Below, piece by piece: positions 2,035 to 43,466 of a stretch of DNA of 43,466 nucleotides. The notes under the pieces are model-generated. The model was not told where the DNA came from. It saw nothing but the letters and a program-made list of their open reading frames with translations, and did not search any database. The position numbers were made by a program, and so were the translations under genes. Numbering within the stretch: the stretch's first letter is position 1; every line of letters starts with the position of its first letter. The stretch covers positions 1-43,466 of IMG/VR virus record IMGVR_UViG_3300014932_000381. The stretch is one strand, 5' to 3'. Source of the stretch: a virus.

Positions 2035-2238
2035 CTATCCCACATTGTTTGATGCTTTCGTGCAATGATTAATGTCGGCAACCAACGCACCGTTCGTTTT
2101 TTCTTGTATCCTTATTTGTGTTTCAATCGGAACATAACCCAACCGCCACCAATGATAAGCACTGCTTGGCGATAACCCCAATCCCTTCGATACCTTGTAA
2201 ATCGTACCGTAGTAATCCATCAAATCATCTAACGTCAT
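2035..2238 (-). CDS. cro: Cro-like transcriptional regulator (67 aa)
   Basis: The start is the ATG at 2238 because AAAGGAG lies five bases upstream; the frame is open to 2274 without a ribosome site. The protein reads MTLDDLMDYYGTIYKVSKGL, then GLSPSSAYHWWRLGYVPIETQ, a typical P22 Cro/YdaS helix-turn-helix (helix 2 at about residues 12-18, recognition helix at 23-33), followed by a short strand with VADI. It is the first gene after a minus promoter whose -35 lies inside the operator shared with the plus-strand recombination operon. It probably represses that promoter and its own. No CI-type partner is visible. Operator identity is inferred. Confidence 0.8.
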   Translation of the reverse strand: MTLDDLMDYYGTIYKVSKGLGLSPSSAYHWWRLGYVPIETQIRIQEKTNGALVADINHCTKASNNVG

Positions 2239-2273: not shown

Positions 2274-2302
2274 ATTATAATTTAGTTGATATTATTAATC
2301 AA
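2274..2302 (-). promoter_or_regulatory. Promoter of the cro operon
   Basis: On the minus strand, TTGATT (2302-2297) and TATAAT (2279-2274) are separated by exactly 17 bp. The -35 box lies in the operator of the divergent recombination promoter, so one bound repressor could act on both. Expected start is near 2267. Confidence 0.7.
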
Positions 2303-2314
2303 TAATAATATAAT
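2286..2314 (+). promoter_or_regulatory. P1: sigma70 promoter with palindromic operator (recombination operon)
   Basis: TTGATA (2286-2291), 17-bp spacer, TATAAT (2309-2314). An inverted repeat TATTATTA-ATCAA-TAATAATA (2290-2310) fills the spacer. The same arrangement occurs at 27666, 32836 and 39807. This copy is perfectly self-complementary but has A where the others have G in the left arm. Confidence 0.75.
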
Positions 2315-2360: not shown

Positions 2361-2756
2361 ATGCAAGATATAGACGTTGATCACACCGATATGATTCAAG
2401 AATTAATTCATTCTATTCGTTTGGCTGATGCTGAAATTGAACGGTGGAGCGCCGCCAAGCAATTAATGAATCAGAAATTGTCCGATTTATTAGGTCACGA
2501 TAAAGATGGTTCCCACACCCATCACTTTCGAAATTACAACATCACCGTAACGACTGGTTGGAATTACAAGCTAAATCCTGCCAAGTATGTTGATTGTGCG
2601 CCGCTGATGAATCCTAAGTTTGATCCCGTTCGCATCACCACAAAATACGAATTAAATAAAAAACGAATCAAAGATTGCGAGCTATACGGTTCTAGCGATG
2701 ATTTAAAATTGTTGTCTGAATTTTGTGTTAAAACACCTAAAAAACAATCCTGTTAA
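2361..2756 (+). CDS. Hypothetical early protein of the recombination operon (131 aa)
   Basis: Begins MQDIDVDHTDMIQELIHSIRL, preceded by AAAGG. The N-terminal third is a helical, coiled-coil-like region. It is followed by a short strand region (HFRNYNITVTTGWNYKLN) and a basic helix (TTKYELNKKRIKDC). I recall similar small proteins beside phage Sak4/SSB/nuclease clusters but cannot name a tested function. It is the first gene after P1, with a 36-base gap to the next. Confidence 0.65.
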   Translation: MQDIDVDHTDMIQELIHSIRLADAEIERWSAAKQLMNQKLSDLLGHDKDGSHTHHFRNYNITVTTGWNYKLNPAKYVDCAPLMNPKFDPVRITTKYELNKKRIKDCELYGSSDDLKLLSEFCVKTPKKQSC

Positions 2757-2791
2757 AATATCAGCCAACACATTAATGGACGGAATAGAAC

Positions 2792-3091
2792 ATGAATAAA
2801 CTAACCAAAAAACGCATGATTATTTTAACAGGATTGTTTTTGACCGGATGTTGCCAAGATTATATTTACATCCCAGATGATGTTGATATGCGGCGCGAGC
2901 AACAACGTGACTATTATCATGAGTCACAATACCTTCCTCGACGACATGTCGTGACTCACAAAAAACAACCAAAAGTTTATGTCGTAAACAATACCCCGCA
3001 CATAAAGAAACAACCATTAAATAAAGGCTATCACGAAGGACGCAGACCCGCTGACGTTGGTCTTGTCGATATGAATGGTGAGCTTCTATGA
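2792..3091 (+). CDS. Small lipoprotein (99 aa)
   Basis: A basic N-terminus (MNKLTKKR), a hydrophobic core and the lipobox LTGC (cleavage before C20) predict export and lipid attachment. The remainder is polar, tyrosine- and histidine-rich, with many basic residues and no domain I recognise. The stop overlaps the ATPase start as ATGA. A membrane lipoprotein made early with recombination genes is odd. Superinfection exclusion or receptor blocking, as known for T5 Llp, is a reasonable guess only. Confidence 0.7.
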   Translation: MNKLTKKRMIILTGLFLTGCCQDYIYIPDDVDMRREQQRDYYHESQYLPRRHVVTHKKQPKVYVVNNTPHIKKQPLNKGYHEGRRPADVGLVDMNGELL

Positions 3092-3858
3092 GCATCCTAG
3101 ACAGTGTTATTACAACACGCCCCGAAGCGCCGTCGATTATTTTATACGGGGCTCCCGGAATAGGGAAATCAACGTTAGCATCACAGTTTCCTGACGCGCT
3201 ATTTCTTTTGACAGAAGACAATGCTTTAACAAACATTAAAGCGCTTCCTGTGGTTCATAGCTATGTTGATATGTGGAACAATGTCAAAGCATTGCTTGAC
3301 ATAAAAGACCTGCCATTTAAAACCATCGTCGTTGATAGTATCACTGCTTTAGACGCCCTTGTTGTGGCCAGGACAATAAGCGAAAGCCCTCCGGGGAAAC
3401 GCGGCGAAGAAGTCAGCACCATAGCACAAGCATTCGGAGGCTATGGCGCGGGATTTATGAAGGCGGCCTCGCTGCATCGCGCACTAAAAGCTAAATTTGA
3501 TTTGTTTAAAGAAAGAGGCGTTACGGTTATTTATATTGCTCATGTTGAAATTAAAAAATTTAAATCACCCGAATCCGAGGATTTTGATACGTTTTCAGTT
3601 GCTATGAATTCTGATTTATCCCGCAGCGTCTACATCAACAATGTCGATATGGTTGCTTTTTGTAAATTAAAATCAAATCATGTGTCTACAGAGTCAGGCA
3701 GAACCATTGTAAAAAGCACCAGCAAACGAGTTATTTATTCAGGCGTTAGTGATTTACATGTGTCTAAAAATCGTTTTGCAATTCCAGATGAGATCGAAAT
3801 GTCTTATGCTGCAATCGCAAAACATATTCCATTTTATAACAAGGATAATAAACAATGA
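3088..3858 (+). CDS. Sak4-like RecA-fold ATPase (recombination, 256 aa)
   Basis: Walker A is GAPGIGKS at residues 21-28, followed by T29. Walker B is IVVDS at 80-84, after a hydrophobic strand. A later strand, GVTVIYIAHVEIKKF, resembles the sensor region of RecA-like AAA_24 proteins. Length matches phage Sak4 ATPases, which promote single-strand annealing with a partner SSB. The neighbouring genes agree: an SSB-like protein and a Cas4/RecB-like nuclease follow at once. Starts by ATGA overlap with the lipoprotein gene and overlaps the next start at 3855. Confidence 0.8.
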   Translation: MSILDSVITTRPEAPSIILYGAPGIGKSTLASQFPDALFLLTEDNALTNIKALPVVHSYVDMWNNVKALLDIKDLPFKTIVVDSITALDALVVARTISESPPGKRGEEVSTIAQAFGGYGAGFMKAASLHRALKAKFDLFKERGVTVIYIAHVEIKKFKSPESEDFDTFSVAMNSDLSRSVYINNVDMVAFCKLKSNHVSTESGRTIVKSTSKRVIYSGVSDLHVSKNRFAIPDEIEMSYAAIAKHIPFYNKDNKQ

Positions 3859-4445
3859 GTAATTTTTGGTCTAGCGGCAGTGGCCGCAAAATAACTGGCG
3901 CAGCTGAAGAAGCATTTTTGGGTGACTTCACCCTTATTCCAGACAATACCGTGGCCGACGCCATGATTAAAAAATTTGTCATTGTAGAAAAACACAACGA
4001 CTACACGCAAATAACCGATAAATATTTTGAAATTACATGGAAATTGGTTTCTGGCGATTTTAAAAATCGCGAAGTATCACAAAAAATAAAAGCATTCGCA
4101 GGCAAACCAGAAGCCATTGACCGCGCATTAAACATGCTCATGCTTGTTATGAAACTTTGTGACTACAAACCATCACACACAAACGCACCCGTAGATGCAG
4201 AATTAGCTGAAATGAACGGCAAAATACTCACTATTAAAGTTCGTGAATGGCACATGCCTAAAGCAGATGGCTCCATGATGGACGGCAATCACGTCACCGA
4301 AGTTCACCCATGCGGCGCACTGCCAACAGAAACAGGCACATTATTACCGCCACAAACACGCACCCCATCAGAAAGAAAAGATAGCGCGCTATCCAGAAAT
4401 CCACGCGTTAATGAAGCTGAGCTAAATGACGATATACCGTTCTGA
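3855..4445 (+). CDS. Single-stranded DNA-binding-like protein (DUF669-like, 196 aa)
   Basis: Begins MSNFWSSGSGRKITG. The body (about residues 30-130) has an OB-like strand pattern with YFEITWKLVSG, then VREWHMPKADG. The extreme C-terminus, NDDIPF, is the classical acidic tip of bacterial SSB proteins that recruits partners. A disordered, Ser/Pro/Thr-rich linker precedes it. Directly after the Sak4-like gene, this fits the annealing partner. The protein differs from classical SSB in sequence, so the DUF669 link is by resemblance. Confidence 0.72.
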   Translation: MSNFWSSGSGRKITGAAEEAFLGDFTLIPDNTVADAMIKKFVIVEKHNDYTQITDKYFEITWKLVSGDFKNREVSQKIKAFAGKPEAIDRALNMLMLVMKLCDYKPSHTNAPVDAELAEMNGKILTIKVREWHMPKADGSMMDGNHVTEVHPCGALPTETGTLLPPQTRTPSERKDSALSRNPRVNEAELNDDIPF

Positions 4446-4467
4446 TATTATACAAGGAAGACATAAA

Positions 4468-5142
4468 ATGGACATTAACAAGCTTATAATAGAATCAATT
4501 GCAAAGCAACCAACAGATGAGCCCCGACGTTATATCGGGGCTAGTAGTATTGGGAAGGAGTGCTCTAGAAGTATTTGGTACGGTCTTCATAATGCGCAAG
4601 GTAAGCCGATTGATTCGCAGTTACGGATCACATTTAAAATTGGGAAGATACTTGAGGTTATGATTTTAGATGGTGTTAGCAAGCTTGGTTTTGAGTTAGA
4701 TCGCCCATCAGAAATAAATAATTATTTGTTTTGTCAAGAAGAAAATCTACAAATATTCCAAGGCCACATGGATGCTGTATTGTACTTAAACCGTGAATGC
4801 CCTGTTGTTTTCGAGGCAAAAACGTGCAAAAACTCAAGCTTTAATGCGTTTAAAAAAGATGGTCTGCGTGTTTGGTCACAAACGTATTTTGCGCAACTAC
4901 AATCTTACATGGGAATGACAGGAATACCTTCGGCGTGTTTGTTGGCATTGAACAAAGACACATCCGAATATCACCACGAATGGGTTGATTATGACGAGAT
5001 TTATTATCATGAGCTGGTAGCTAAGGCTCGAGACATATCGATTGCTACAGAGCCTCCTGAGCGCATTAACAAGAGCCCTTTGTATTGGGTTTGTGCCTCA
5101 TGTAAGTTCAAAGACATTTGCCATGGAGGAGCAGAGGGATGA
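4468..5142 (+). CDS. PD-(D/E)XK exonuclease with iron-sulfur cysteines (224 aa)
   Basis: The start is at MDINKLII because AAGGA lies nine bases upstream. The RecB/Cas4-type core shows GHMDAV (D102) and FEAKT (E116, K118), then the QLQSYM motif (Q143, Q145). Cysteines C32 and the C-terminal C209-x2-C212-x5-C218 match the four-cysteine iron-sulfur staple of Cas4 and AddB. It should resect DNA ends to feed the Sak4/SSB annealing pair encoded just upstream. Overlaps the next gene by ATGA. Confidence 0.82.
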   Translation: MDINKLIIESIAKQPTDEPRRYIGASSIGKECSRSIWYGLHNAQGKPIDSQLRITFKIGKILEVMILDGVSKLGFELDRPSEINNYLFCQEENLQIFQGHMDAVLYLNRECPVVFEAKTCKNSSFNAFKKDGLRVWSQTYFAQLQSYMGMTGIPSACLLALNKDTSEYHHEWVDYDEIYYHELVAKARDISIATEPPERINKSPLYWVCASCKFKDICHGGAEG

Positions 5143-5387
5143 GTTACGATTGGGTTGATTTGCTTTTGCTGTCTATTTGCGGGGGATGCTTAGGCGGTAT
5201 TATTGTTATGTCATTATTTTACTGCCATTTTAAAATGGCTTACCGTGAATACAAATCAGCAATTGATTCATTGAAGGCAACTATAGATTTAAAACGAATG
5301 AACGACGAAATGGATGCGATGCGCATTCAAGTCAAAGCATTGTTTGGTGAATTTTATCAACAAGAACAGGACTATCGAAATGATTAA
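5139..5387 (+). CDS. Small membrane protein with cytoplasmic coiled coil (82 aa)
   Basis: Starts at MSYDWVDLLLL, overlapping the nuclease stop (ATGA) with GGAGGA upstream. A hydrophobic segment at about residues 7-31 contains the small-residue run GGCLGGIIV. The rest is a charged helix (YKSAIDSLKATIDLKRMNDEM). No family recognised. It may anchor something to the membrane. Confidence 0.62.
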   Translation: MSYDWVDLLLLSICGGCLGGIIVMSLFYCHFKMAYREYKSAIDSLKATIDLKRMNDEMDAMRIQVKALFGEFYQQEQDYRND

Positions 5388-5856
5388 GATTAAAACGGAC
5401 ACTTGCGCAGCAGAAGGATGTACTAATAAGCGCAAGATTTCACCAAAAAATGAAAAAAGAACCATGCGGTCGTCTCGTTTTTGCTCCACCCATCTATCGA
5501 GATGGAATAGAACAAAAAAATTAGAATTAGATAAAAAAACGCCTGCGCCTGAAGGCGTTGTGAAACATTGCGCTCAACACGGCCCTTTGATGGAAAGCCA
5601 AGTTTATCGCGTAGAAAATTATTTACGATGCAAAGAATGCCAAAGACAAAACATGTTAAAAAATTATATAAAAAAACATGGTCGGGCGCCTAAAGTTAGA
5701 AAAGACAAAGAAACACGGTACACTAGAAAACCAAATACGTTTGCCGATATTGCGCGATTAGATGTAAATAAAATCCGTTCTGATTTAGACATGGATTTTA
5801 AAGAAATAAATGATGTACTTATTCGTTACGAAACAGAGAGTATTGATGGCTATTAA
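5380..5856 (+). CDS. Zinc-binding protein of unknown role (158 aa)
   Basis: Start MIKIKTDTC with AGGA eight bases upstream; it overlaps the membrane gene by eight bases. Two metal-binding clusters are visible: C9-x4-C14 with C35-x2-H38, and C64-x2-H67 with C84-x2-C87. The middle is very basic (KNYIKKHGRAPKVRKDK). The second cluster resembles the zinc ribbons in the HNH protein at 28213, but no HNH catalytic motif is present here. Likely a nucleic-acid-binding early protein. Confidence 0.65.
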   Translation: MIKIKTDTCAAEGCTNKRKISPKNEKRTMRSSRFCSTHLSRWNRTKKLELDKKTPAPEGVVKHCAQHGPLMESQVYRVENYLRCKECQRQNMLKNYIKKHGRAPKVRKDKETRYTRKPNTFADIARLDVNKIRSDLDMDFKEINDVLIRYETESIDGY

Positions 5857-6070
5857 AGCTAAACAATTAAGTGGGGTGCGTGTCTATAATGTAGCTGGAC
5901 GCGTGCCTAGCGCTAAAATTAATACCATAATAACGTGGCAAGATATTGTTAATGCCGCAATGAATCCTGTTGTAATTTATTTGAAAAACAAACGAAACGC
6001 TTCGCTTATAACGTCGACGCCCCTACCTGCATCCAGCGAACTTGAGAAGAAGCGCGACACATCATCATAG
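5846..6070 (+). CDS. Hypothetical protein (74 aa)
   Basis: Starts at MAIKAKQLSGVRVYN, overlapping the zinc protein by 11 bases, with AGAGAG upstream. Basic, with one hydrophobic strand (NPVVIYLKNKRNA) and a Ser/Thr-rich tail. Last gene of the P1 operon, converging on the VRR-NUC gene with a 4-base gap and no clear terminator between. No family recognised. Confidence 0.55.
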   Translation: MAIKAKQLSGVRVYNVAGRVPSAKINTIITWQDIVNAAMNPVVIYLKNKRNASLITSTPLPASSELEKKRDTSS

Positions 6071-21273: not shown

Positions 21274-22523
21274 TATGCTTTAGTTCCTTGTGAGTAAAAA
21301 TTAGTCGCTTGCGCAAAATGTCCGTTTGTATAATTTTGTAAACTGGTCAATAACCCTTCGCCGTCATTAGCTTGTGTGTTGATTGTGGTTGGACCAAGAT
21401 TATAATTAATTTGTGGTGCTGCGTTTGCTCCATTTGTTAATAATGGGCTTATGCCTAAAATACTTGAATTTGATGTCGGTTGATTTTTCAGTATATCTTC
21501 AGTCCCGATTCCTAAACTTAATTTAAGTTTTCCTAAAAAAGAAGCTTGAGAATAAGCGGCTTTTAAAATTCTTTCTCGCTCTATTATAGCCGGTGCTCCG
21601 CCTTCATTAACGCCGGATAAATAACCCAATCCAGTATTTATACCGCCTTTTTTAAAAGCTTGGCCTTCTTCATAAAGAGCGCCCACACCTAATGCCGCAC
21701 TTCCTGCAATAGCTATTCCTCTCCCAATGGGCGTTGATAAAGCCGCAATAGTGGCCAATGTTGACAAAGTGGCCGTTCCGCCTTTAATAACATCTCTATG
21801 TTTGTCAGCATAAGCAAATCCTTCTGCCGCTATTTTCTGTAATTTAATTAAAATAGGTAACGCATCGGCGGCTAAATGATTAAATAACACTTGGCTCGCT
21901 TGCTTGGTCTCAACTAAAGATACCCTGAATTTATTAAACAACTCCGAATCATGTTCAGTCACTAAACCCAATTCTTTTTGGCGCTTAATAATGTCTTCAA
22001 CTTCACGCCGACCTTGTTGCAGTAACAAAATAGTACCTTCATCAAAGCCAAGTTGATGACCCACTTGTTGAGCGCGTGCAGGGCTTAATTTATGAAACAG
22101 GTCGCTATATAAGGGTAAAGCTTTAAGAGCCGTGGCAGGGCTTGTGCCGAACTTTGTGGCCAAGCCTTTTAAAGTGTTTTGAAATTGTGCGGCATCACCA
22201 CCAGCTAATTCAACAGCATTTCCCCATGCCTGCAAGTCTGTTGTATTAACGTTTAGTAATCGCGATGTTTGACTAAGATTCACACCAAAATCTAACGCGG
22301 ATTTAAAATGAGATATAGAATAAATGGCGGCGGCTGACGTTGCGGCGAAACTGGCGGCTGATTGTGTGAATTTAAGAAATGATCCACCTACTTTTTCCGC
22401 GCTTTTGTCTGTGCGCTTTAAAGATGACTCAAGTTTGCCAATTTCTTTCTCAGCTTCGTTTAAACCTTTTTTTAGGTCATCGGTATCTGCGCGAAAAAGG
22501 ATGTAAAGTGTCTCAAGATTCAT
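21273..22523 (-). CDS. Tail tape measure protein (416 aa)
   Basis: Begins MNLETLYILFRADTDDLKKG, with a coiled-coil start and a hydrophobic helix (FAATSAAAIYSIS). The middle is helical, and residues of about 250-285 hold a second hydrophobic stretch (TLATIAALSTPIGRGIAIAG). At about 0.15 nm per residue, 416 residues predict a short tail near 60 nm. Start overlaps the stop of the frameshifted chaperone (TAATG). Confidence 0.82.
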   Translation of the reverse strand: MNLETLYILFRADTDDLKKGLNEAEKEIGKLESSLKRTDKSAEKVGGSFLKFTQSAASFAATSAAAIYSISHFKSALDFGVNLSQTSRLLNVNTTDLQAWGNAVELAGGDAAQFQNTLKGLATKFGTSPATALKALPLYSDLFHKLSPARAQQVGHQLGFDEGTILLLQQGRREVEDIIKRQKELGLVTEHDSELFNKFRVSLVETKQASQVLFNHLAADALPILIKLQKIAAEGFAYADKHRDVIKGGTATLSTLATIAALSTPIGRGIAIAGSAALGVGALYEEGQAFKKGGINTGLGYLSGVNEGGAPAIIERERILKAAYSQASFLGKLKLSLGIGTEDILKNQPTSNSSILGISPLLTNGANAAPQINYNLGPTTINTQANDGEGLLTSLQNYTNGHFAQATNFYSQGTKA

Positions 22524-27611: not shown

Positions 27612-27665
27612 TGTTTGATCGTCCGTAGTTTTAATCAAGTCAGTATATATTATGTTGATAGCTTA

Positions 27666-27694
27666 TAGTTATTGTTATATAATAATAATATAAC
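27666..27694 (+). promoter_or_regulatory. P2: promoter with palindromic operator (XhlA-like/HNH island)
   Basis: TAGTTA (27666-27671), 17-bp spacer, TATAAC (27689-27694). Operator TATTGTTA-TATAA-TAATAATA at 27670-27690. Weaker boxes than P1, P3 and P4. An ATAACGCC/GGCGTTAT pair (27690-27697, 27733-27740) encloses the start region and the leader folds further. Confidence 0.65.
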
Positions 27695-27776: not shown

Positions 27777-27953
27777 GTGATTGACAAACAATATATTGAT
27801 CACGAAGTGCGTATTAGGCTAACAGAGTCTTTAATCAAACGTTTTGATGCTCGCTTTGATATGATTGACGCCAAAATGGACAATCAATTCAAATGGATTA
27901 TCGGGACTATTATTACCATGTTTGGCGGGTTAATTATTTCTAAACTGATATAA
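27777..27953 (+). CDS. XhlA-like small membrane protein A (58 aa)
   Basis: GTG start with GGAGA seven bases upstream. Reads IDKQYIDHEVRIRLTESLI, a helix repeating aromatic-aspartate-aliphatic triplets (RFDARFDMIDAKMD), then one C-terminal span of about 18 residues (WIIGTIITMFGGLIISKL). Helix plus C-terminal anchor recalls haemolysin XhlA proteins, which assist phage lysis. It has a paralogue 95 bases downstream sharing YIDHEVRIR. Lies antisense to the late block. Confidence 0.65.
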   Translation: MIDKQYIDHEVRIRLTESLIKRFDARFDMIDAKMDNQFKWIIGTIITMFGGLIISKLI

Positions 27954-27961
27954 ACGAATAC

Positions 27962-28024
27962 GCAAAGTCTAGGCCGGCCAGCCGAATAGCAGATACCTCG
28001 ATGCGTGACTTTGCTTTTATTTTG
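27962..28024 (+). terminator. Terminator or structured RNA between the XhlA-like paralogues
   Basis: Perfect 8-bp stem GCAAAGTC/GACTTTGC (27962-27969, 28007-28014) closing a 37-base folded interior with GGCCGGCC, followed by TTTTATTTT. The long interior loop is unusual for a simple terminator. Confidence 0.6.
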
Positions 28025-28048
28025 AGGATTACTTGAGGAGTAATGATA

Positions 28049-28210
28049 ATGAAAAATGAAAATTATATAGATCACGAAATAAGAATTAGAATGCTTGAAT
28101 TGTTATCTGCGAAGATAGACAAGCATTTGATGTGGATACTTGCTTTATGCGGAGGAATATTAACATCTATTGCAATCCCTGTTGTTCTTCATATTATGAA
28201 ACTGGTGTGA
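28049..28210 (+). CDS. XhlA-like small membrane protein B (53 aa)
   Basis: ATG at 28049 with GAGGAG eight bases upstream (an ATG two codons earlier is too close). Reads MKNENYIDHEIRIRMLELL, a short linker, then a hydrophobic C-terminal segment (WILALCGGILTSIAIPVVLH). Shares the YIDHE(V/I)RIR start with protein A but has a shorter helix and different span. Ends two bases before the HNH gene start. Confidence 0.62.
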   Translation: MKNENYIDHEIRIRMLELLSAKIDKHLMWILALCGGILTSIAIPVVLHIMKLV

Positions 28211-28212
28211 TC

Positions 28213-29007
28213 ATGAATAGCGCGATTGATAGCAAGGCTTGTAGTAAATGTGGCGTTGTTAAAGGGTTTGGGGAGTTTCGTGTTGAACCAAAAGGAAAAG
28301 ACGGCTATACCGCACGCTGCAAAGTATGTCATCGTCTTGCTTGTAAGGAATCCAAATTAAAACATGCGGACAAAGTAAAAGCGGCCGCTAAAACTTATCG
28401 TGAAAATAATCATGAAAAAATGTATGAATTACAAAAGTCATGGAAAATTGCAAACAAAGAAAAACGTAAAAATCAATCTGAATCTTTATGGTTAGAATAC
28501 GAGCAATCTTGGCCTGAAATTTCATTTGTTTGCAGTCAATGTTCAATTGAAAAATCATTTCGTGAATTTTATCGTAATCGCGCAATGGCACACGGTTTGG
28601 ATTATCACTGTAAAGAATGTAGTAAATCAAAATTTAAAAATTGGCGAATAAATAATATTGAACAAGAAAAAGAAAGGCGACTTAATTATTATGAAAATAA
28701 TTTTGAAAAAATAATGATAACTAGAAAAATATATATCGAAAATAATTTGGATAAAATTAATGTGATGCGAGCCAAAAGAAGGGCGGCGGAACTTAGAGCT
28801 AATGTTTCATGGGCTAACCAAGACAAGATAAAAGAGTTTTATGCGGAATCAATTAGAAGAACCAAGATGACTGGAATACAACATCATGTCGATCATATTG
28901 TGCCATTAGTAAATGATCATGTTTGCGGGCTTCACAATGAATTCAATTTGCAAGTATTAACCGCCAGCGAAAATTCATCCAAGAGAAATAAATTTACTCC
29001 TGGATGA
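28213..29007 (+). CDS. HNH endonuclease with two zinc ribbons (264 aa)
   Basis: Start MNSAIDSKACSKC, tightly after protein B. Two similar ribbons: C10-x2-C13 with C36-x2-C39, and C107-x2-C110 with C133-x2-C136. A basic coiled linker follows. The HNH nuclease motif is HHVDHIVPL (D227, H228), HNEFNLQVL (N245) and ASENSSKRNK (N254). This type is usually a free-standing homing endonuclease that spreads by cutting related phages. It lies against the direction of the surrounding late genes. Confidence 0.85.
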   Translation: MNSAIDSKACSKCGVVKGFGEFRVEPKGKDGYTARCKVCHRLACKESKLKHADKVKAAAKTYRENNHEKMYELQKSWKIANKEKRKNQSESLWLEYEQSWPEISFVCSQCSIEKSFREFYRNRAMAHGLDYHCKECSKSKFKNWRINNIEQEKERRLNYYENNFEKIMITRKIYIENNLDKINVMRAKRRAAELRANVSWANQDKIKEFYAESIRRTKMTGIQHHVDHIVPLVNDHVCGLHNEFNLQVLTASENSSKRNKFTPG

Positions 29008-32783: not shown

Positions 32784-32811
32784 ATTATACCTTATTAATA
32801 GTATAACGCAA
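32784..32811 (-). promoter_or_regulatory. Candidate minus-strand promoter for the head gene block
   Basis: On the minus strand TTGCGT (32811-32806), 16-bp spacer, TATAAT (32789-32784). An operator half-site TAACAATA lies at 32812-32819 with a degenerate partner (TAGTATAA) 5 bp away, so the phage repressor might touch this promoter too. Diverges from P3. Confidence 0.5.
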
Positions 32812-32835
32812 TAACAATAATAACAGATAATTACC

Positions 32836-32864
32836 TTGCTATTGTTATCAAATAATAATATAAT
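32836..32864 (+). promoter_or_regulatory. P3: promoter with palindromic operator (Rha island)
   Basis: TTGCTA (32836-32841), 17-bp spacer, TATAAT (32859-32864). Operator TATTGTTA-TCAAA-TAATAATA at 32840-32860. The leader (ATATTAAATAACAAA) is also like that of P4. Confidence 0.75.
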
Positions 32865-32899
32865 GACTGCATATTAAATAACAAACGGATGAAATAAAA

Positions 32900-33106
32900 A
32901 TGAAAACTTTAGCTGAAAGACATGAATATAAGTTTGGTGCAAACGCTTTCGATATTTGCACTGTAGCGGTACAAAAAGATCAAGATTACGAAAACGAAAC
33001 AACTTACTGGATATTTGAAGATGGATCGGCTTTGTCGTTAAATTCGCACAATATAATTGGGGTGGTTAATAATTACGGATTATCTTGTGACAACGAACAA
33101 TTATAA
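32900..33106 (+). CDS. Hypothetical protein (68 aa)
   Basis: Starts MKTLAERHEYKFGANAFDIC, with GGATG upstream, 36 bases after the P3 -10 box. Mixed alpha/beta with TYWIFEDGSALSLN. First gene of the P3 operon; no family recognised. Confidence 0.6.
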   Translation: MKTLAERHEYKFGANAFDICTVAVQKDQDYENETTYWIFEDGSALSLNSHNIIGVVNNYGLSCDNEQL

Positions 33107-33138
33107 ACAACAGTTTTAAATTTAAAAGGAAAAACAAA

Positions 33139-33429
33139 ATGTTTCAAGGAATTAATGATAATTATATGTTTTGGAATGATGCAACAGAAGTCTTGCCAGG
33201 CAATAAGTTCGGGGATAATGATCATGAATTTTTATTAAGAATATCATTTGAGGATGATTTGCAGTTGCCTATTTATATTATGGCGTTTTTAATTGGCGGG
33301 ACATTTGTCCCCTCGGTTTATTGTTTGTGCTGTGATGATTGTAAGTGTGATTCGTCAGAAAAGGTATTAGCCTTGGATCTAGCCACGATCACTCATTGGG
33401 CTTTAATACGTCATCGAAATGACGATTAA
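33139..33429 (+). CDS. Hypothetical protein with cysteine cluster (96 aa)
   Basis: Starts MFQGINDNYMFWNDATEVLP with AAAAGGA upstream. A hydrophobic middle (PIYIMAFLIGGTFVPSVY) precedes C-x-CC-x2-C-x-C (CLCCDDCKC), a compact possible metal site. The leader before it repeats the TTTTAAATTTAAAAGGA found before the next gene. No family recognised. Confidence 0.6.
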   Translation: MFQGINDNYMFWNDATEVLPGNKFGDNDHEFLLRISFEDDLQLPIYIMAFLIGGTFVPSVYCLCCDDCKCDSSEKVLALDLATITHWALIRHRNDD

Positions 33430-33466
33430 TAAAGATTAATTTTAAATTTAAAAAGGATAAATAAAA

Positions 33467-33673
33467 ATGCACAGATCTAAATTATAATTAATTCAACATC
33501 TATGTTTTGATAGGACAAAGGGCAAGCCAGAATTAACGATAGAAGAAAAAATGTTACATGTAACTTGTCGAATGGCCAAAAAACAAGCCAATGTGTTTTT
33601 TGTATTTTGGTTATGTTTTTGGTTGTGTACGGTTCCTTTTTTGAATCGGGTGTTACCTTGGTTGTGGATGTGA
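33467..33673 (+). pseudogene. Small membrane protein gene with in-frame stop at codon 7
   Basis: AAAAAGGA precedes ATG CAC AGA TCT AAA TTA, then TAA at 33485-33487. The same frame then stays open for 61 codons: LIQHLCFDRTKGKPELTIEE, a basic stretch, a hydrophobic segment (VFFVFWLCFWLCTVPFL) and an end at TGA 33671. Either a nonsense mutation, a reinitiation at the ATG at 33551 (40-residue product), or readthrough. The repeated leader shows this was a real gene position. Confidence 0.5.
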
Positions 33674-33859
33674 GGCGTTGGAAATTAAAATATAATTAAA
33701 TTTGTGTGGCATTACCTAGATTTATATCAATAGTTGAAAATCTTTTCGGATCGGTAATCTGGAAAGATTCAATGAAACATATCGGATTTGAAACGCGGTA
33801 ACTTTACTTTTTCTGGTGATTCGAATAAGATTTATTCTTTTTCGTTTTACAGGGAATTT

Positions 33860-34630
33860 ATGCGGGAATTAATTGTTGTGAGAAATAATGAGGTTTTTAC
33901 AACATCCCAAGCGATTGCGAAGGGTGTTGGTCACAGTCATGAAACTGTGGTTCGTTTAATAAGAAATTCATCTGATTTGCCTCAACTTATGGATTTAAAA
34001 TCGGAATCTTTGAAGACAAAAGGAAGAACGGCCGAAGTATTTTATTTAACTGAAGAACAGGCGACATTGGTTGTTATGCTTATGAAGAACTCTCCTGTTG
34101 TACGTTTATTCAAAAGCACTTTAGCTAAAGAATTCTTCAAACAAAGAAAAATTATTCATCATTTATTATTAAAACAACAAAACATAGAATGGCTGAAAAA
34201 AAGGCAAGAGACAAAAGTTATGCGGAGAGAATGTACAGACGTAATCCAAAAATTTATTTCTTATGCAAAAGAGCAAGGTAGCAAATCGGCAGATCACTAT
34301 TACTCAAACGTATCACGCATGGAACTAACAGGCCTGTTTCTTTTAGAGCAAAAATTTCCTAACGCACGAGATGTAATGAATATTAGACAATTGAATGTCA
34401 TTGAAATGGCCGACCAAATCATAGCAAATTCATTAGAGGATTCTATGAACAAAAACATCCCATACAAAGAATGCTTTCAAATAGCAAAGGAGCGCATAAC
34501 CACGCTTGCAAGTTTGATGCCTAAATCACCGCTTCCAGCATTATTGCAAAAGAAAGAAAAAATCAATCTTGATCAATTTTCTTCGACTCCCGCTCCTGGC
34601 GCTCAACAGCACCTTGATACAGCAATATAA
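33860..34630 (+). CDS. Rha family phage regulatory protein (256 aa)
   Basis: Start at MRELIVVRNNEVFTTSQAIA with AGGG six bases upstream; an earlier TTG has no ribosome site. Residues 1-100 are the Rha domain: HSHETVVRLIRN, TEEQATLVVMLMKNSPVVRL, FFKQRKII. The C-terminal domain (YYSNVSRMELTGLFLLEQKF, then LNVIEMADQIIANSLEDSMN) is the one often fused to it. Rha proteins act as phage regulators or antirepressors. Converges on and overlaps the 34563-34820 gene by 68 bases. Confidence 0.82.
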   Translation: MRELIVVRNNEVFTTSQAIAKGVGHSHETVVRLIRNSSDLPQLMDLKSESLKTKGRTAEVFYLTEEQATLVVMLMKNSPVVRLFKSTLAKEFFKQRKIIHHLLLKQQNIEWLKKRQETKVMRRECTDVIQKFISYAKEQGSKSADHYYSNVSRMELTGLFLLEQKFPNARDVMNIRQLNVIEMADQIIANSLEDSMNKNIPYKECFQIAKERITTLASLMPKSPLPALLQKKEKINLDQFSSTPAPGAQQHLDTAI

Positions 34631-37467: not shown

Positions 37468-38058
37468 ATGACCTCTGAAAAATCAAACCCCATTTATTTT
37501 CAAGTGCCTAAATTAATGACTGATCACCCGAAAATAACTGGCGATCATATCTACATATTTATGCCGCTTTATGATCATCTTCGCCGGTCTCCTTGGGACA
37601 AAATCGGTTATAACAAAACCAATGAATTTTTGCATGAATTTTCAAAAATAGGTTTGCGTCAAGTTAAAACAAAATTAAATCAATTAGAAGAATGGGGATT
37701 TTTAATAAGAAAAGGGATGGGCCATAACCGGAAGTTCTTTATTGGCAAAATATTTAACAACAGTGCGGAATCGGAACCTGTTTTAAACTTGGACAACAGG
37801 GCGGGATCGGAACTAGAACAGGGCGAAATCGGAACCAGTACAGGGTCAAAACGGAACTACATAATTAAGAATGTTATCAAGAATATTAATAAGAAAGAGA
37901 TTGCTCGCGCAAAATCAAAAACAAAAACCCCAACCCCCGAAGAGCATGAGTTAATGCAAAATTATAAATACGGATTAGAACACCCTGAGTTTTTGTTAAA
38001 ACCCGATTTATTGGAGCATGCAAAAAAATTGTATGACAAATTCAACCCTAAAGATTAA
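37468..38058 (+). CDS. Winged-helix DNA-binding protein (196 aa)
   Basis: Starts [20 protein letters not shown]. Residues of about 20-95 form a winged helix: [40 protein letters not shown], then a wing [11 protein letters not shown]. Middle is acidic and disordered, and a basic helix ([18 protein letters not shown]) precedes the C-terminal helices. Layout resembles the phage's own replication protein N-terminus, so a second initiator-like or regulatory protein is likely. Overlaps the terminase 3' end by 11 bases. Confidence 0.7.
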
Positions 38059-39670
38059 ATATGCTTCGTCGTCCGGGTTGAATAGGGGCAAAACAAATAA
38101 CTAAACTATCGGCCAAATTCGGGGATTTGCAACCCGGTGGTTGTTTGTCTACCAGTATTTTACCGTTGTTATTTTGTGAGTAAGTAGGTTGTGACAATTC
38201 GACTAACAGTTTTTTGTAGTCTGGAATTGCGCTTGATATTGAAATAATGTCGCCTGGGTCTACGGGGAGTTGCTCTACAATTGCTCGGTATGTTAATTGA
38301 AATCTGCGTCTTAGCGACCACCAGGCTTGCGCTTTAGCGTTAGCAAAAAAGTCTTCGTTTGTTCTGCCTGGTTCGCGATCTTTAACCTCAGCCGACGATT
38401 GAAACGGATTACCTTCGGGGTCAACAACTGCGCCTGAACCACGGAACGGATTAAAATTGATTTTAGATAATCCAGCAGCCATACGGTCGCGATTAATGAC
38501 GCGAGCATCACCCCTAACGCCAGCCCCAAGACCATCAGCGTCATAATCAGCAACAGGTAAATGCAGCTCATCACAAAGCCTAAAGGCCCTTTCAACCGTA
38601 TCGTATATATCACTGCCTTTCCCGCTCCATGATTCCAAATGTTCTACCAGTATACCATGGCGAGCGCATAGTGAGTTTTTATCGATACCCTCGTCTGCTA
38701 TGTCTATCCCGGCCTTTCGAATGCCTGTAGGCTTTATATTAAGCTTTAAATGGGCATCTACAGCCGACTGCACCCAAACCGATGGAATTAATATACCTTC
38801 GACTGATGCTGAGTAATCTAAATCTATTTCTTGCGCTATGACTACGGGATCATCAATGTCATGACACATCTTTTCATACCATGCCTGGTCTTTTCTTAAA
38901 TCGTCTGTCCAGTGAAAGGTAAATACATTTATTTTCCCGCCGAATCGTTTTCTTGCAAAGCTATTATTCATGCCTCGAGGTGTCGATACATCAATCCTGC
39001 AATTGGTTGTTTGTGACAAAGACGCGTCCAAAAGCTCAGCTCGAGGGATAAAGGCGCTTTCATCGATGAAGGTTATCGAGGTCCTTGCTCCGCGTCCTAT
39101 GCCATCTCCTGACTCGCCTGTAATAACAGAACCGCTGTTTGGAAATTCAATGCGCATGTAAGGGCTATGTTTTTTTTCGTCCCAATCGCCGCGAAATTCT
39201 TTGGGTAATCGCGATATAAATTGTCTTGCTTTCCAGAGTAGTGATTTTGGATCGCCTTTCTTATCCACGTATTCTTCTTTTCTTGAGCCAAATCCTATAT
39301 TCATGCCTTCGTAAAACAAACAAAGCGTTGATGCAACGCTGACCGTAAGCCAAGACAACCCACATTCACGTGATTTTTCTACAAGTCCAGGCTCTCTGTT
39401 TTTCCAACGAGCCAATAACCAATGAACCCATTCTTCTTGTTTTGGAAGCAACAAAAAAGGCATCAATGTAGGAAGCCCACGCTCTACGTTCCTAGGGTCA
39501 CTGGTCACACCCCAGTCAATAATAAATTGGGCGGGGTCGTTTCGATAAAACAATCTAAGCGCATCCCAAACATCAGGATTTTTCTTTAATCGCAAATAAC
39601 GCTCCATGCGCCATTCCCACACCTTGTTGTAATCAGGGTTTTTATAATCAAAATCAAATGGTAGAGGCAT
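38048..39670 (-). CDS. terL: Terminase large subunit (540 aa)
   Basis: Start at [20 protein letters not shown] with AAGG nine bases upstream; a GTG at 39706 is open but lacks a ribosome site. ATPase: Walker A-like EKSRECGLS (98-106) and Walker B ITFIDESA (199-206). Nuclease acids: GIDIADEG (D323), YDADGLGAG (D377) and NLADSL near the end. It is the packaging motor. First gene of the late block, 24 kb from the small subunit candidate. Confidence 0.88.
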
Positions 39671-39712
39671 AACAAATACCTTATTAACAACATCACCACT
39701 TTCCACAAAATC

Positions 39713-39806: not shown

Positions 39807-39835
39807 TTGCTATTGTTATTAAGTAACAATATAAT
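39807..39835 (+). promoter_or_regulatory. P4: promoter with perfect palindromic operator (tiny-gene operon)
   Basis: TTGCTA (39807-39812), 17-bp spacer, TATAAT (39830-39835). Operator TATTGTTA-TTAAG-TAACAATA at 39811-39831 is a perfect 8-bp inverted repeat and the best example of the motif. Confidence 0.8.
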
Positions 39836-39865: not shown

Positions 39866-39964
39866 GTGCAATTGGATGAATATCATGGTGATGAGCCTGA
39901 GCAATATCAAGACGAGCAAACGTTTCGTGAAGAGCAATGGGATTTAGATGGAGAGGAAGAATGA
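39866..39964 (+). CDS. Very small acidic protein (32 aa)
   Basis: GTG start with AAGGGAG five bases upstream, 30 bases after the P4 -10 box. Sequence opens MQLDEYHGDEPEQYQDEQ and ends LDGEEE: highly acidic, like a DNA mimic in charge but very short. Overlaps the next start by ATGA, which supports it as real. Confidence 0.6.
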   Translation: MQLDEYHGDEPEQYQDEQTFREEQWDLDGEEE

Positions 39965-40173
39965 AATTAGAGATAATTAATTTGCGTCCTTTGCATTGTT
40001 TGGAGCATTTAGGTCATGTTCATTTGGCAAAACTTGCTTATGAAAATATGGGAACTGGCTTTAAAGAGAATATATTTTGGACTTGCAATGAAATTGAAGA
40101 TTTTGAAAATCAATTAATGATGATTGTTAAACAACTACAAGATTATAGGATGAAACAAAATGCTGTCGTTTGA
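39961..40173 (+). CDS. Hypothetical protein (70 aa)
   Basis: ATG overlaps the previous stop (ATGA), with GGAG upstream. MKLEIINLRPLHCLEHLGHV opens a mixed alpha/beta fold; the C-terminal half is helical. Second gene of the P4 operon. No family recognised. Confidence 0.58.
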   Translation: MKLEIINLRPLHCLEHLGHVHLAKLAYENMGTGFKENIFWTCNEIEDFENQLMMIVKQLQDYRMKQNAVV

Positions 40174-40330
40174 AACCCAAGAGTGTTGTATGTCACCGGA
40201 TTGCAAAAACAATTGTTGTGAGCATGAGCCAGAAGAAGGCTTTGTGCATTTTGAATTAGACATTGATTCAGAAAACAAAGTAATTGGCATGCAACATAAA
40301 TGCAAAAAATGCGGAGAATTTTATAAATGA
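40160..40330 (+). CDS. Small zinc-ribbon-like protein (56 aa)
   Basis: ATG at 40160 with AGGATG upstream, overlapping the previous gene by 14 bases. Cysteines: CC (9-10), C15, CC (19-20) and C-terminal C-x2-C in HKCKKCGEFYK. The last pair plus the N-terminal cysteines could bind one zinc. Acidic middle. No family recognised. Confidence 0.58.
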   Translation: MLSFETQECCMSPDCKNNCCEHEPEEGFVHFELDIDSENKVIGMQHKCKKCGEFYK

Positions 40331-40494
40331 TAATTTCAGAAAAACAAATTATTCAGTTGATTCTTTTGGCCGAAGGATATTGTAGCGCGCTTCATAAATT
40401 TGGCGAATACAAGCAGGTGGAAATAATTGAAGATTTACTAGCAACAATTAGCGATCAACAATCCGATGAGCTTAAGGAAATCAAAAATGATTGA
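40327..40494 (+). CDS. Hypothetical helical protein (55 aa)
   Basis: Starts by ATGA overlap. Reads MIISEKQIIQLILLAEGYCS, then a helix YKQVEIIEDLLATISDQQSD. All-helical, acidic. No family recognised. Confidence 0.55.
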   Translation: MIISEKQIIQLILLAEGYCSALHKFGEYKQVEIIEDLLATISDQQSDELKEIKND

Positions 40495-40648
40495 TTACGA
40501 AAAACTTAAAAAAATTGTAAATGAGCAAGCAGAAGATGAAAGCTTATGGTTTAACGCAATTTATGCAAGCGAAGATATTTTGCAAAGAGCTTTACGTCGA
40601 TTGCATGCAGCAATTGAAGACTGCGAACACAAAAGAGATTATAAATGA
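40487..40648 (+). CDS. Hypothetical helical protein (53 aa)
   Basis: Starts at MIDYEKLKKIVNEQAEDESL with AAGGA nine bases upstream and an eight-base overlap with the previous gene. Helical, with a CEHKRDYK end. Resembles small phage proteins with ESLWFNA-type motifs, function unknown. Confidence 0.57.
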   Translation: MIDYEKLKKIVNEQAEDESLWFNAIYASEDILQRALRRLHAAIEDCEHKRDYK

Positions 40649-40863
40649 TTGATTTGCACGATTTAACAAAAGAGCACTACACGCCTGATGTATCACCCCT
40701 CGAGATGCTAAAACAGCACGAACTATCGTTTATTAACAAAAAAGAAGATCACGAATTTTCTATCAGCTTAACAACTAACCAGCTAAAGATGCTTCAAACC
40801 AATCTAATTTGGCTTCTAAGCGTCGTAAACAATTACCTACCCAAAGATATTAAGACAAGTTAA
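40645..40863 (+). CDS. Hypothetical protein (72 aa)
   Basis: Starts by ATGA overlap. MIDLHDLTKEHYTPDVSPLE precedes a strand-helix end (FSISLTTNQLKMLQTNLIWL). Last gene of the P4 operon, convergent with the next minus gene across a hairpin. Confidence 0.57.
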   Translation: MIDLHDLTKEHYTPDVSPLEMLKQHELSFINKKEDHEFSISLTTNQLKMLQTNLIWLLSVVNNYLPKDIKTS

Positions 40864-40882: not shown

Positions 40883-41136
40883 TAAACTCTTAACAACAAG
40901 CTATTTGCGTTACGTCTACCAAAGTTTTGCGCGGACGTTTCGTTTTCACACTCTCCCATCATTCTAAGCCAGCATTTAACATACTCATGCAATAGCTTGC
41001 GGTGATCATCTTCATGGTAATAACTAAGTCTGTCACGTATAAACATAACATCTTCTTCTAGCAGCGCTACACCCATGCGCTCGCAATAATCTTCAAACGA
41101 TCGCAAATCAATATTGCATCCATACTTTTTTTTCAT
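40882..41136 (-). CDS. Hypothetical helical protein (84 aa)
   Basis: ATG with AGGATG eight bases upstream. Begins MKKKYGCNIDLRSFEDYCER and continues as acidic helices (FIRDRLSYYHEDDHRKLLHE). Alone on its strand between the P4 operon and the replication block. No family recognised. Confidence 0.58.
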   Translation of the reverse strand: MKKKYGCNIDLRSFEDYCERMGVALLEEDVMFIRDRLSYYHEDDHRKLLHEYVKCWLRMMGECENETSAQNFGRRNANSLLLRV

Positions 41137-41353
41137 AAAATGACATCCTGTTATATTTTATACAAAATGTATGCAAATACCGTGTTTTTGTCACTATTGT
41201 ACATAATACATATAATATCGTAGACCTATTATGCGATATGATCATAATGTATGCATTGTATATTATCCGATCATATTATCAGCTTGTTTTTTTTATTCAT
41301 TTTCACTCGCAATTAATATAATATTCGTTTGCACATTGTCCTAATCCTGTGTG
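41137..41353. promoter_or_regulatory. AT-rich intergenic region with repeated ATGTATGCA motifs
   Basis: No gene is visible. ATGTATGCA occurs twice (41168-41176 and 41249-41257), and palindromes such as ATGATCAT lie near 41238-41245. A plus-strand TATAAT is at 41317-41322 without a good -35. The region likely carries the promoter of the 41136 gene and may hold binding sites for a regulator or an origin. Confidence 0.4.
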
Positions 41354-41393
41354 TTGAGGCCTTGAACTCCCTGATATCCAAGGCCTCAATTTT
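41354..41393 (+). terminator. Strong intrinsic terminator without an upstream plus-strand gene
   Basis: Perfect 11-bp inverted repeat TTGAGGCCTTG/CAAGGCCTCAA (41354-41364, 41379-41389), 14-base loop, then TTTT on the plus strand. On the minus strand it could also stop the replication transcript, though the U-run is absent there. Confidence 0.65.
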
Positions 41394-41419
41394 AGTTAAT
41401 ATACTTTTTCTTTGGTTTT

Positions 41420-41671
41420 TTAAACAAAAGAATCTAAATCAAATTTAGGAGAATGCGGTTTGTTTTTTTCCTTACGAAGCTGGTTTGTTTGCTCTATAAT
41501 TGACCACAATAAATCTTTGGCTTCTTTTTCTGATTCGCAATTAATATTACAAATATTGTCGTTTCCGACAAAATTTATTTCAATAACAAAAAGACTGTCA
41601 TTAATACAGCTATAAGAAGCAAATAAAATGTTATTTTTGTTTATAATTTTATCTTTTAATTTAATAAACAT
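41420..41671 (-). CDS. Hypothetical protein (83 aa)
   Basis: Begins MFIKLKDKIINKNNILFASY, with strands (SLFVIEINFVGNDNICNIN) and one helix (EKEAKDLLWSIIEQTNQLRK). Starts right after the helicase stop (TAA-A-ATG), with a weak GGGAC ribosome site. Strand layout loosely resembles the 1138-1464 protein. Last gene of the replication transcript. Confidence 0.55.
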   Translation of the reverse strand: MFIKLKDKIINKNNILFASYSCINDSLFVIEINFVGNDNICNINCESEKEAKDLLWSIIEQTNQLRKEKNKPHSPKFDLDSFV

Positions 41672-43019: not shown

Positions 43020-43440
43020 TAGGTATTATCCTTTGGTTGTTTTTTGATTATTAAGATGGCTTTTTCAAAGTTGCTGCATCTTAAAACAATATCCATGCTG
43101 TGAGGATTGTCGCCGCACAGCATGAACCACTTCTTTTTTATTAATTCAATTAAAAACCTTTTCCAGTTATCTGGGGTAAGCATTATATCAGGGGATAATT
43201 GATAATCTGTATCTTTATTCAATTCAGGCCAGTATTTAGCTATCTTTTTTAAATTCGTTTCTATCGCTTTCATTTGCTTTTTGTTTTTTGTTCTTACAGG
43301 GCTAAATGGCTGTCCCCGAGCAAGTTCGTCCCATATTTCAATGTATTCTTTTCCAGAAAAAACTGGCGCGTCAGCGCTTTGTTTTTCTTTAAGATCTTGG
43401 GTATTAAGATCATGGGTATTATATGTAGGTCCCTCAGGGA
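43019..43440 (-). CDS. Replication initiator-like protein, C-terminal part
   Basis: Continues in phase from base 1. After the second PPVPEGPT copy the protein reads YNTHDLNTQDLKEKQSADAP, FSGKEYIEIWDELARGQPFS, then a basic stretch RTKNKKQMKAIETNLKKIAK and DNWKRFLIELIKKKWFMLCG. An internal ATG at 43273 would give only the last 84 residues and has no ribosome site, so it is not the true start. The C-terminal part may contact the helicase, whose gene starts at the stop codon. Confidence 0.7.
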
Positions 43441-43453
43441 CCGGGGGGGGAGG
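43425..43453 (-). repeat. 24-bp coding repeat at the right contig end, overlapping the left end
   Basis: Bases 43425-43447 equal bases 9-31. Bases 43441-43453 also match 1-13 except one base (G at 43450 for T at 10), directly after a G-run. Joining 43440 to base 1 keeps the reading frame. Confidence 0.8.
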
Positions 43454-43466
43454 CTGTCTCTTATAC
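43454..43466. other. Sequencing adaptor remnant
   Basis: CTGTCTCTTATAC is identical to the first 13 bases of the Nextera transposase mosaic-end read-through (CTGTCTCTTATACACATCT). It should be removed from the phage sequence. Confidence 0.92.

Follow-up and report, generated by a model that had tools for sequence, protein, structure and literature searches.

A dispersed set of promoter-overlapping dyads as candidate operators of a P22/N15-type Cro in a tailed phage

A divergent promoter region at 2274–2314 of a tailed bacterial phage contains an inverted repeat that recurs at three distant places in the same DNA, which raises the question of whether one repressor governs units scattered along the genome and, if so, which protein it is. 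The window, i.e. the whole 43,466-bp stretch analyzed here, is virus record IMGVR_UViG_3300014932_000381. Its terL is ~60% identical to terL of SEN34-like phages, its minus strand carries the late genes and its plus strand five short units. It was compared with a sister phage (G001, IMGVR_UViG_3300011114_000931) and with a more distant relative (G002, IMGVR_UViG_3300045923_000052; terL 74%, Sak4-like protein 57%), which was the only genome returned when the 2361 protein and the cargo protein 33139 were used to seek further relatives. Phages SEN34, yong1 and Magia have the virion module in common with the window but lambda-type repressor/Cro regions, and the other terL relatives (L027–L036) are mostly fragments without P22_Cro. 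Among relatives by Cro (L080–L088), no 8-5-8 dyad recurred in front of cro, and the window's terL and Sak4-like genes are missing from both near-full-length contigs of this group that were tested (L080, L081); a scan of genome contigs for Cro gave just two weak unrelated matches. Both window ends (9–31 and 43425–43447) share GTAGGTCCCTCAGGGACCGGGGG, and the right end finishes at 43454–43466 in CTGTCTCTTATAC, which resembles a transposon adapter used in sequencing; the ends of the contig are probably not genuine phage sequence.

Candidate operators and their promoters

An earlier note on this DNA had described an 8-5-8 inverted repeat at four places. All four were located, and all are intergenic and precede plus-strand units. 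They follow the 21-bp pattern TATTRTTA-N5-TAAYAATA, with conserved arms and a 5-bp centre that varies among the four sites, and TATAAT/C adjoins each of them. They are listed here with a weaker candidate; mismatches are counted against TATTGTTA-N5-TAACAATA.

2290–2310, operator 1, TATTATTAATCAATAATAATA, 2 mismatches, inside the divergent cro/recombination promoter region
27670–27690, operator 2, TATTGTTATATAATAATAATA, 1 mismatch
32840–32860, operator 3, TATTGTTATCAAATAATAATA, 1 mismatch
39811–39831, operator 4, TATTGTTATTAAGTAACAATA, 0 mismatches, perfect dyad
32799–32819, weaker candidate site with one perfect half, TAACAATA, 41 bp upstream of operator 3, score 13.5

An 8-5-8 search allowing up to 3 mismatches returned 6 places versus 1.0 expected. 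When a weight matrix of the 16 arm positions was applied, the four operators scored 25.0–25.5, followed by the intergenic site at 32799 and then by scores of 7.7 or lower. Thus, the pattern has no equal matches in coding sequence, and the matrix scan of the window revealed no high-scoring site there or away from promoters. The site at 32799 is 21/21 identical in G001 and overlaps a capsid-side promoter of the minus strand, TTGCGT-16-TATAAT (32811–32784); speculatively, this weak conserved site could extend control to late genes.

The promoters predicted at the four operators are the following.

2286–2314, plus strand, TTGATA-17-TATAAT, recombination unit, from a promoter scan
2302–2274, minus strand, TTGATT-17-TATAAT, cro promoter with its -35 in the centre of operator 1
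27655–27683, plus strand, preferred unit 2 promoter from a both-strand scan, TTGATA (27655–27660), 17 bp, TATAAT (27678–27683)
32836–32864, plus strand, TTGCTA-17-TATAAT, unit 3
39807–39835, plus strand, TTGCTA-17-TATAAT, unit 4, divergent from terL (38048–39706, minus strand)

The earlier note had also placed the dyad at one identical offset within a -35/17 bp/-10 arrangement at all four sites. This was correct for 2286, 32836 and 39807, where the operator begins exactly 4 bp after the first -35 base, but not for 27666, since a promoter at 27666–27694 would have a -35 matching at just 3/6 positions (TAGTTA) and TATAAC as -10, and is outscored by 27655–27683. The latter scores as high as any promoter in the window, its hexamers are conserved in G001, and operator 2 covers its -10 and start region; the operator offset is therefore not constant. 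Ten promoters in the window combine at least 10/12 matches with a 17-bp spacer, and five of these ten overlap an 8-5-8 dyad, a type present 40 times in 43 kb. The five are the promoters at the four operators and the cro promoter, which shares 2290. The suggestion that almost all plus-strand transcription falls under one repressor holds as far as four of the five units possess sites, but in the matrix scan no operator site was found for the fifth (37468–38058, an O-like replication gene). A strong promoter without an operator, TTGTCA-17-TATAAT at 41188–41216 (plus strand), lies in a gene-free stretch (41136–41420) with no obvious plus-strand gene behind it.

Conservation and a second operator type

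Palindrome families of at least four members arose in 30/150 local dinucleotide shuffles of this AT-rich sequence, so that the count alone proves little, and it was dropped as proof. The composite of operator plus TATAAT with four members arose in 1/34 shuffles, even at 3 or fewer mismatches, and among the 2.9 million viral contigs of IMG/VR the exact composite TTGNTATTRTTA-N5-TAAYAATATAAT was found in no contig beyond the sister phage. All four sites are syntenic in G001, at 21632, 37233, 32829 and 27316 for operators 1 to 4, respectively, operator 2 being identical. Between the window and G001 the arms are identical at 63/64 positions versus 310/400 for the flanks (surrounding 100 bp per site; Fisher p = 1.1e-5), and comparison of the arms with the upstream flank alone gave p = 0.002.

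G001 carries an additional, fifth site at 23786. It lies in the promoter region of the counterpart (L006, about 3080–3170) of a conserved, structured non-coding stretch at 662–742 of the window (plus strand; folding z = -3.1; no Rfam match), and a small RNA may thus join the regulon in G001. A second conserved non-coding stretch, at 416–478, is 87% identical in G001, contains two potential hairpins and lies upstream of a minus-strand frame beginning near 390.

In G002 the operator is again an 8-5-8 dyad but of another sequence, TATATCAA-N5-TTGATATA. It is found at three TTGATA-17-TATAAT promoters, each with two tandem dyads spaced 19 bp.

9158/9177, cro/recombination divide, syntenic with window 2290
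40699/40718, upstream of terL, syntenic with window 39811
1141/1160, third pair, 1.3 kb beyond the terL-side pair if the contig is circular

All these dyads score 18 or more and the next site 11.9. The matrix was made from the three upstream dyads, whose high scores therefore follow by construction, unlike those of the three downstream ones. Within G002 its composite pattern is found 3 times, whereas other IMG/VR contigs with a match nearly always have a single one; the sole other contig with two matches (L136) is very AT-rich and matches by composition. The G002 cro promoter, TTGATG-17-TATATT (9184–9156), crosses both dyads of its pair. In the window, a further near-dyad of 8-5-8 form but different sequence, ATCAATTA-TAATT-TAGTTGAT, lies at 2270–2290, 20 bp from operator 1; it covers the cro -10, is conserved in G001 and resembles the 19-bp tandem spacing of G002.

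Combined, the uniqueness of the composite, its conservation in G001 and the same layout in G002 settle, at the level of sequence, that the sites are real. Layout, promoter type and 8-5-8 geometry are kept in G002 while the operator differs, and so does the recognition-helix region of Cro, which reads SPSSAYHWWR in the window and G001 versus SAGAPYNWKK in G002. The G002 Cro homologue is 43–45% identical, and its gene is divergent from a homologue (43%) of 2361–2756. As one operator-plus-helix change was seen, the covariation is a single event and not a statistic; it is consistent with Cro as the binder, short of proof.

The candidate regulator and its rivals

The gene next to operator 1 is the following.

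2035–2238, minus strand, P22/N15-type Cro of 67 aa, start ATG at 2238, SD AGGAG, first gene of a leftward operon

Its product matches Pfam P22_Cro (4.3e-8, 33.2 bits versus a cut-off of 30.2) and phrog_409 (1.7e-10), and by sequence the PDB entries of N15 Cro (2HIN/6ON0, 7e-5) and P22 Cro (1RZS, 0.004); designed TPR proteins in the same PDB listing match just as summed weak repeats. An AF2 model from nine sequences (pLDDT 82.5), used in place of a poor one from three sequences (pLDDT 52), has four helices in an all-alpha HTH fold, with N15 Cro as best Foldseek match (TM 0.78). In the window, G001 and G002 alike, cro adjoins overlapping divergent promoters and a palindromic operator (2274–2314 in the window). 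A partner cI is the usual setting of P22/N15-type Cro, outside the protein family definition. Here, neither an integrase nor a CI-type HTH_3 repressor above the cut-off was matched in the window, G001 or G002, contigs that may be incomplete, which makes Cro the best candidate binder.

With a probability of about 0.78, we consider the four elements to be operators of the phage's own Cro, which would shut off the linked early units. The earlier proposal that a single repressor, with Cro as the natural candidate, governs a dispersed regulon is supported in this respect by the conservation of the sites in G001 and from the joint change of operator and helix in G002 with the layout kept. We infer Cro binding, its repressive effect and the timing, the promoters being in silico predictions. 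Each dyad covers part of the region that RNA polymerase would contact at a predicted strong sigma70-type promoter, so that initiation would be blocked once a Cro dimer is bound; dyads over the spacer or the -10/start of near-consensus promoters are in a position suited to blocking polymerase. Since operator 1 lies in overlapping divergent promoters, Cro would silence the recombination unit on one side and the leftward operon that starts with cro on the other, and as the cro -35 is inside operator 1, autoregulation would follow if Cro binds there. The three other operator-promoters would each drive a small plus-strand cassette located between genes of the minus strand. All units would be switched on at once upon infection and go off together as Cro accumulates (early-gene shut-off).

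It is unlikely that the dyads instead belong to another phage regulator, such as an undetected CI-type protein or Rha, or to a host regulator, with Cro binding 2290 alone or none. Rha (33788–34630) does belong to a phage transcription-regulation family, yet tblastn found no Rha in G001 or G002, both of which keep operators. The G002 dyad TTGATATACATCAA happens to fit the FNR consensus, which would count for a host regulator, but the match is limited to one of the three G002 promoters and to none of the window's. The studied members of this Cro family have one binding site each, PY54 Cro binding one 16-bp palindrome (PMC4488713) and phiKO2 Cro just OR3 (PMC4997575); this restriction favours another regulator and tells against the Cro account, as does a 21-bp dyad that exceeds 16-bp sites, unless the protein in fact contacts just the 17-bp core TTGTTA-N5-TAACAA. 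A CI may also have been missed, the contigs being possibly incomplete. Against another regulator stand the lack of a confident HTH_3 or integrase match in the three contigs and the presence, in both lineages, of a site at the divergent promoter of cro itself.

Duplication of one strong promoter cassette with no regulator at all, the dyad being a by-product of an AT-rich spacer, appears improbable. It would account for the 44 bp at 91% between window 32832–32875 and the G001 counterpart of 39811, and families of four palindromes do arise in shuffles. However, the arms are kept although the 5-bp centre differs from site to site, the sites other than 32840 and 39811 share no flanks, the promoter at 27670 is shifted 11 bp with the dyad kept, and G002 has dyads of identical 8-5-8 geometry with other sequence in tandem pairs. 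That the bound protein activates these promoters is very improbable indeed: an activator could in principle coordinate dispersed early units, but no result favours it, and the dyads lie in the spacer or over the -10/start of promoters with near-consensus hexamers and a 17-bp spacer.

Exchange of cargo and comparison with known systems

The units behind the four operators are the following.

2361–6070, plus strand, unit 1, recombination: phrog_2480-like protein, small secreted-looking protein, Sak4-like ATPase, SSB, Cas4-type exonuclease
27777–29007, plus strand, unit 2 cargo: two XhlA-like small membrane proteins, HNH/endonuclease VII-like protein
32900–34630, plus strand, unit 3 cargo: small ORFs and the Rha-type regulator
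39937–40863, plus strand, unit 4: operon of five tiny genes

The alignment of the window with G001 breaks directly behind the promoter at two of the sites, at window 27701 for site 27670 and at 32864 for site 32840. In G001 a single 100-aa ORF replaces the unit 2 cargo and one ~50-aa membrane ORF that of unit 3. Thus, at 27670 and 32840 the operator-promoter is retained with the phage backbone, and it is the cargo immediately beyond the start site that changes. G002 has homologues of the XhlA-like genes (unit 2), of 33139 (unit 3; G002 574–834) and of 40327 (unit 4; behind the G002 promoter at 1154), grouped in two units, one behind 40712 and one behind 1154. Because the former unit spans the contig ends, its link to genes at 142–849 assumes circularity; no terminal repeat was found at the G002 ends, and the ORF that runs into the junction does so out of frame. 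The same genes would thus occupy different places in the window and G002, each time behind the local operator type. This fits the earlier idea that modules plug into phage control, the cargo being swapped in G001 or relocated in G002, always behind an operator-promoter. Unit 2 also contains, at 27962–28028 (plus strand), an int-alpA RNA (RF02996, 39.1 bits), which separates the two XhlA-like genes and has no integrase/alpA setting around it.

A wider reading, plausible but tentative, is that in this lytic-looking lineage a lone Cro may provide global early shut-off, with fixed operator-promoters as docking sites between late genes; newcomers exchanged just downstream of the start would fall under Cro, and the other branch may have rewritten all its sites in step with the recognition helix.

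The window's Cro is like P22, N15 and Xfaso 1 Cro (all-alpha) in family, fold, small single-domain HTH and a divergent early promoter with the operator between; unlike them, it has no cI partner found, and its candidate sites are at four dispersed promoters, not in an OR/OL cluster. Several non-adjacent operators of one sequence (four in the window, five in G001, three pairs in G002), located in predicted promoters at all four window sites, recall the 22 dispersed operators of phage P1 C1 (PMC8546580), spread over the genome as proposed here. C1 is, however, a lysogeny repressor with asymmetric 17-bp sites, whereas here the sites are symmetric, the candidate is Cro and no lysogeny genes were found. 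MrpR of SPbeta binds SPBRE in many promoters (PMC10516654), an intergenic promoter element repeated across one phage, as here, and seen in silico before its repressor; unlike the present case, MrpR is a recombinase-fold lysogeny repressor of a Gram-positive temperate phage, with a 15-bp motif. Lysogeny repressors of Cluster A mycobacteriophages have 20–30 sites whose sequence tracks the repressor (PMC6550527), and these stoperators, as here, are dispersed and change with the repressor between relatives. Stoperators are asymmetric, mostly outside promoters and block elongation, whereas the window sites are in promoters only, with no high-scoring site elsewhere. The cassettes resemble phage morons, cargo genes expressed independently, in being small plus-strand units between oppositely oriented late genes that vary among relatives; here, however, the operator in the promoter is the phage's own, and the promoter persists when the cargo is replaced.

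In the literature searched, no description was found of a Cro-only dispersed regulon with exchangeable cargo. Dispersed phage operators are already known; a Cro-centred, CI-less version controlling swappable cassettes would be new, as far as searched. It offers an answer to how accessory phage genes are timed: by exchange behind a conserved operator-promoter, they would bring no regulation of their own. The lineage pair with two operators is a natural test of joint change in a repressor and its dispersed sites, and an operator scan with the local Cro may serve as a simple rule for finding accessory early genes in uncultured phages.
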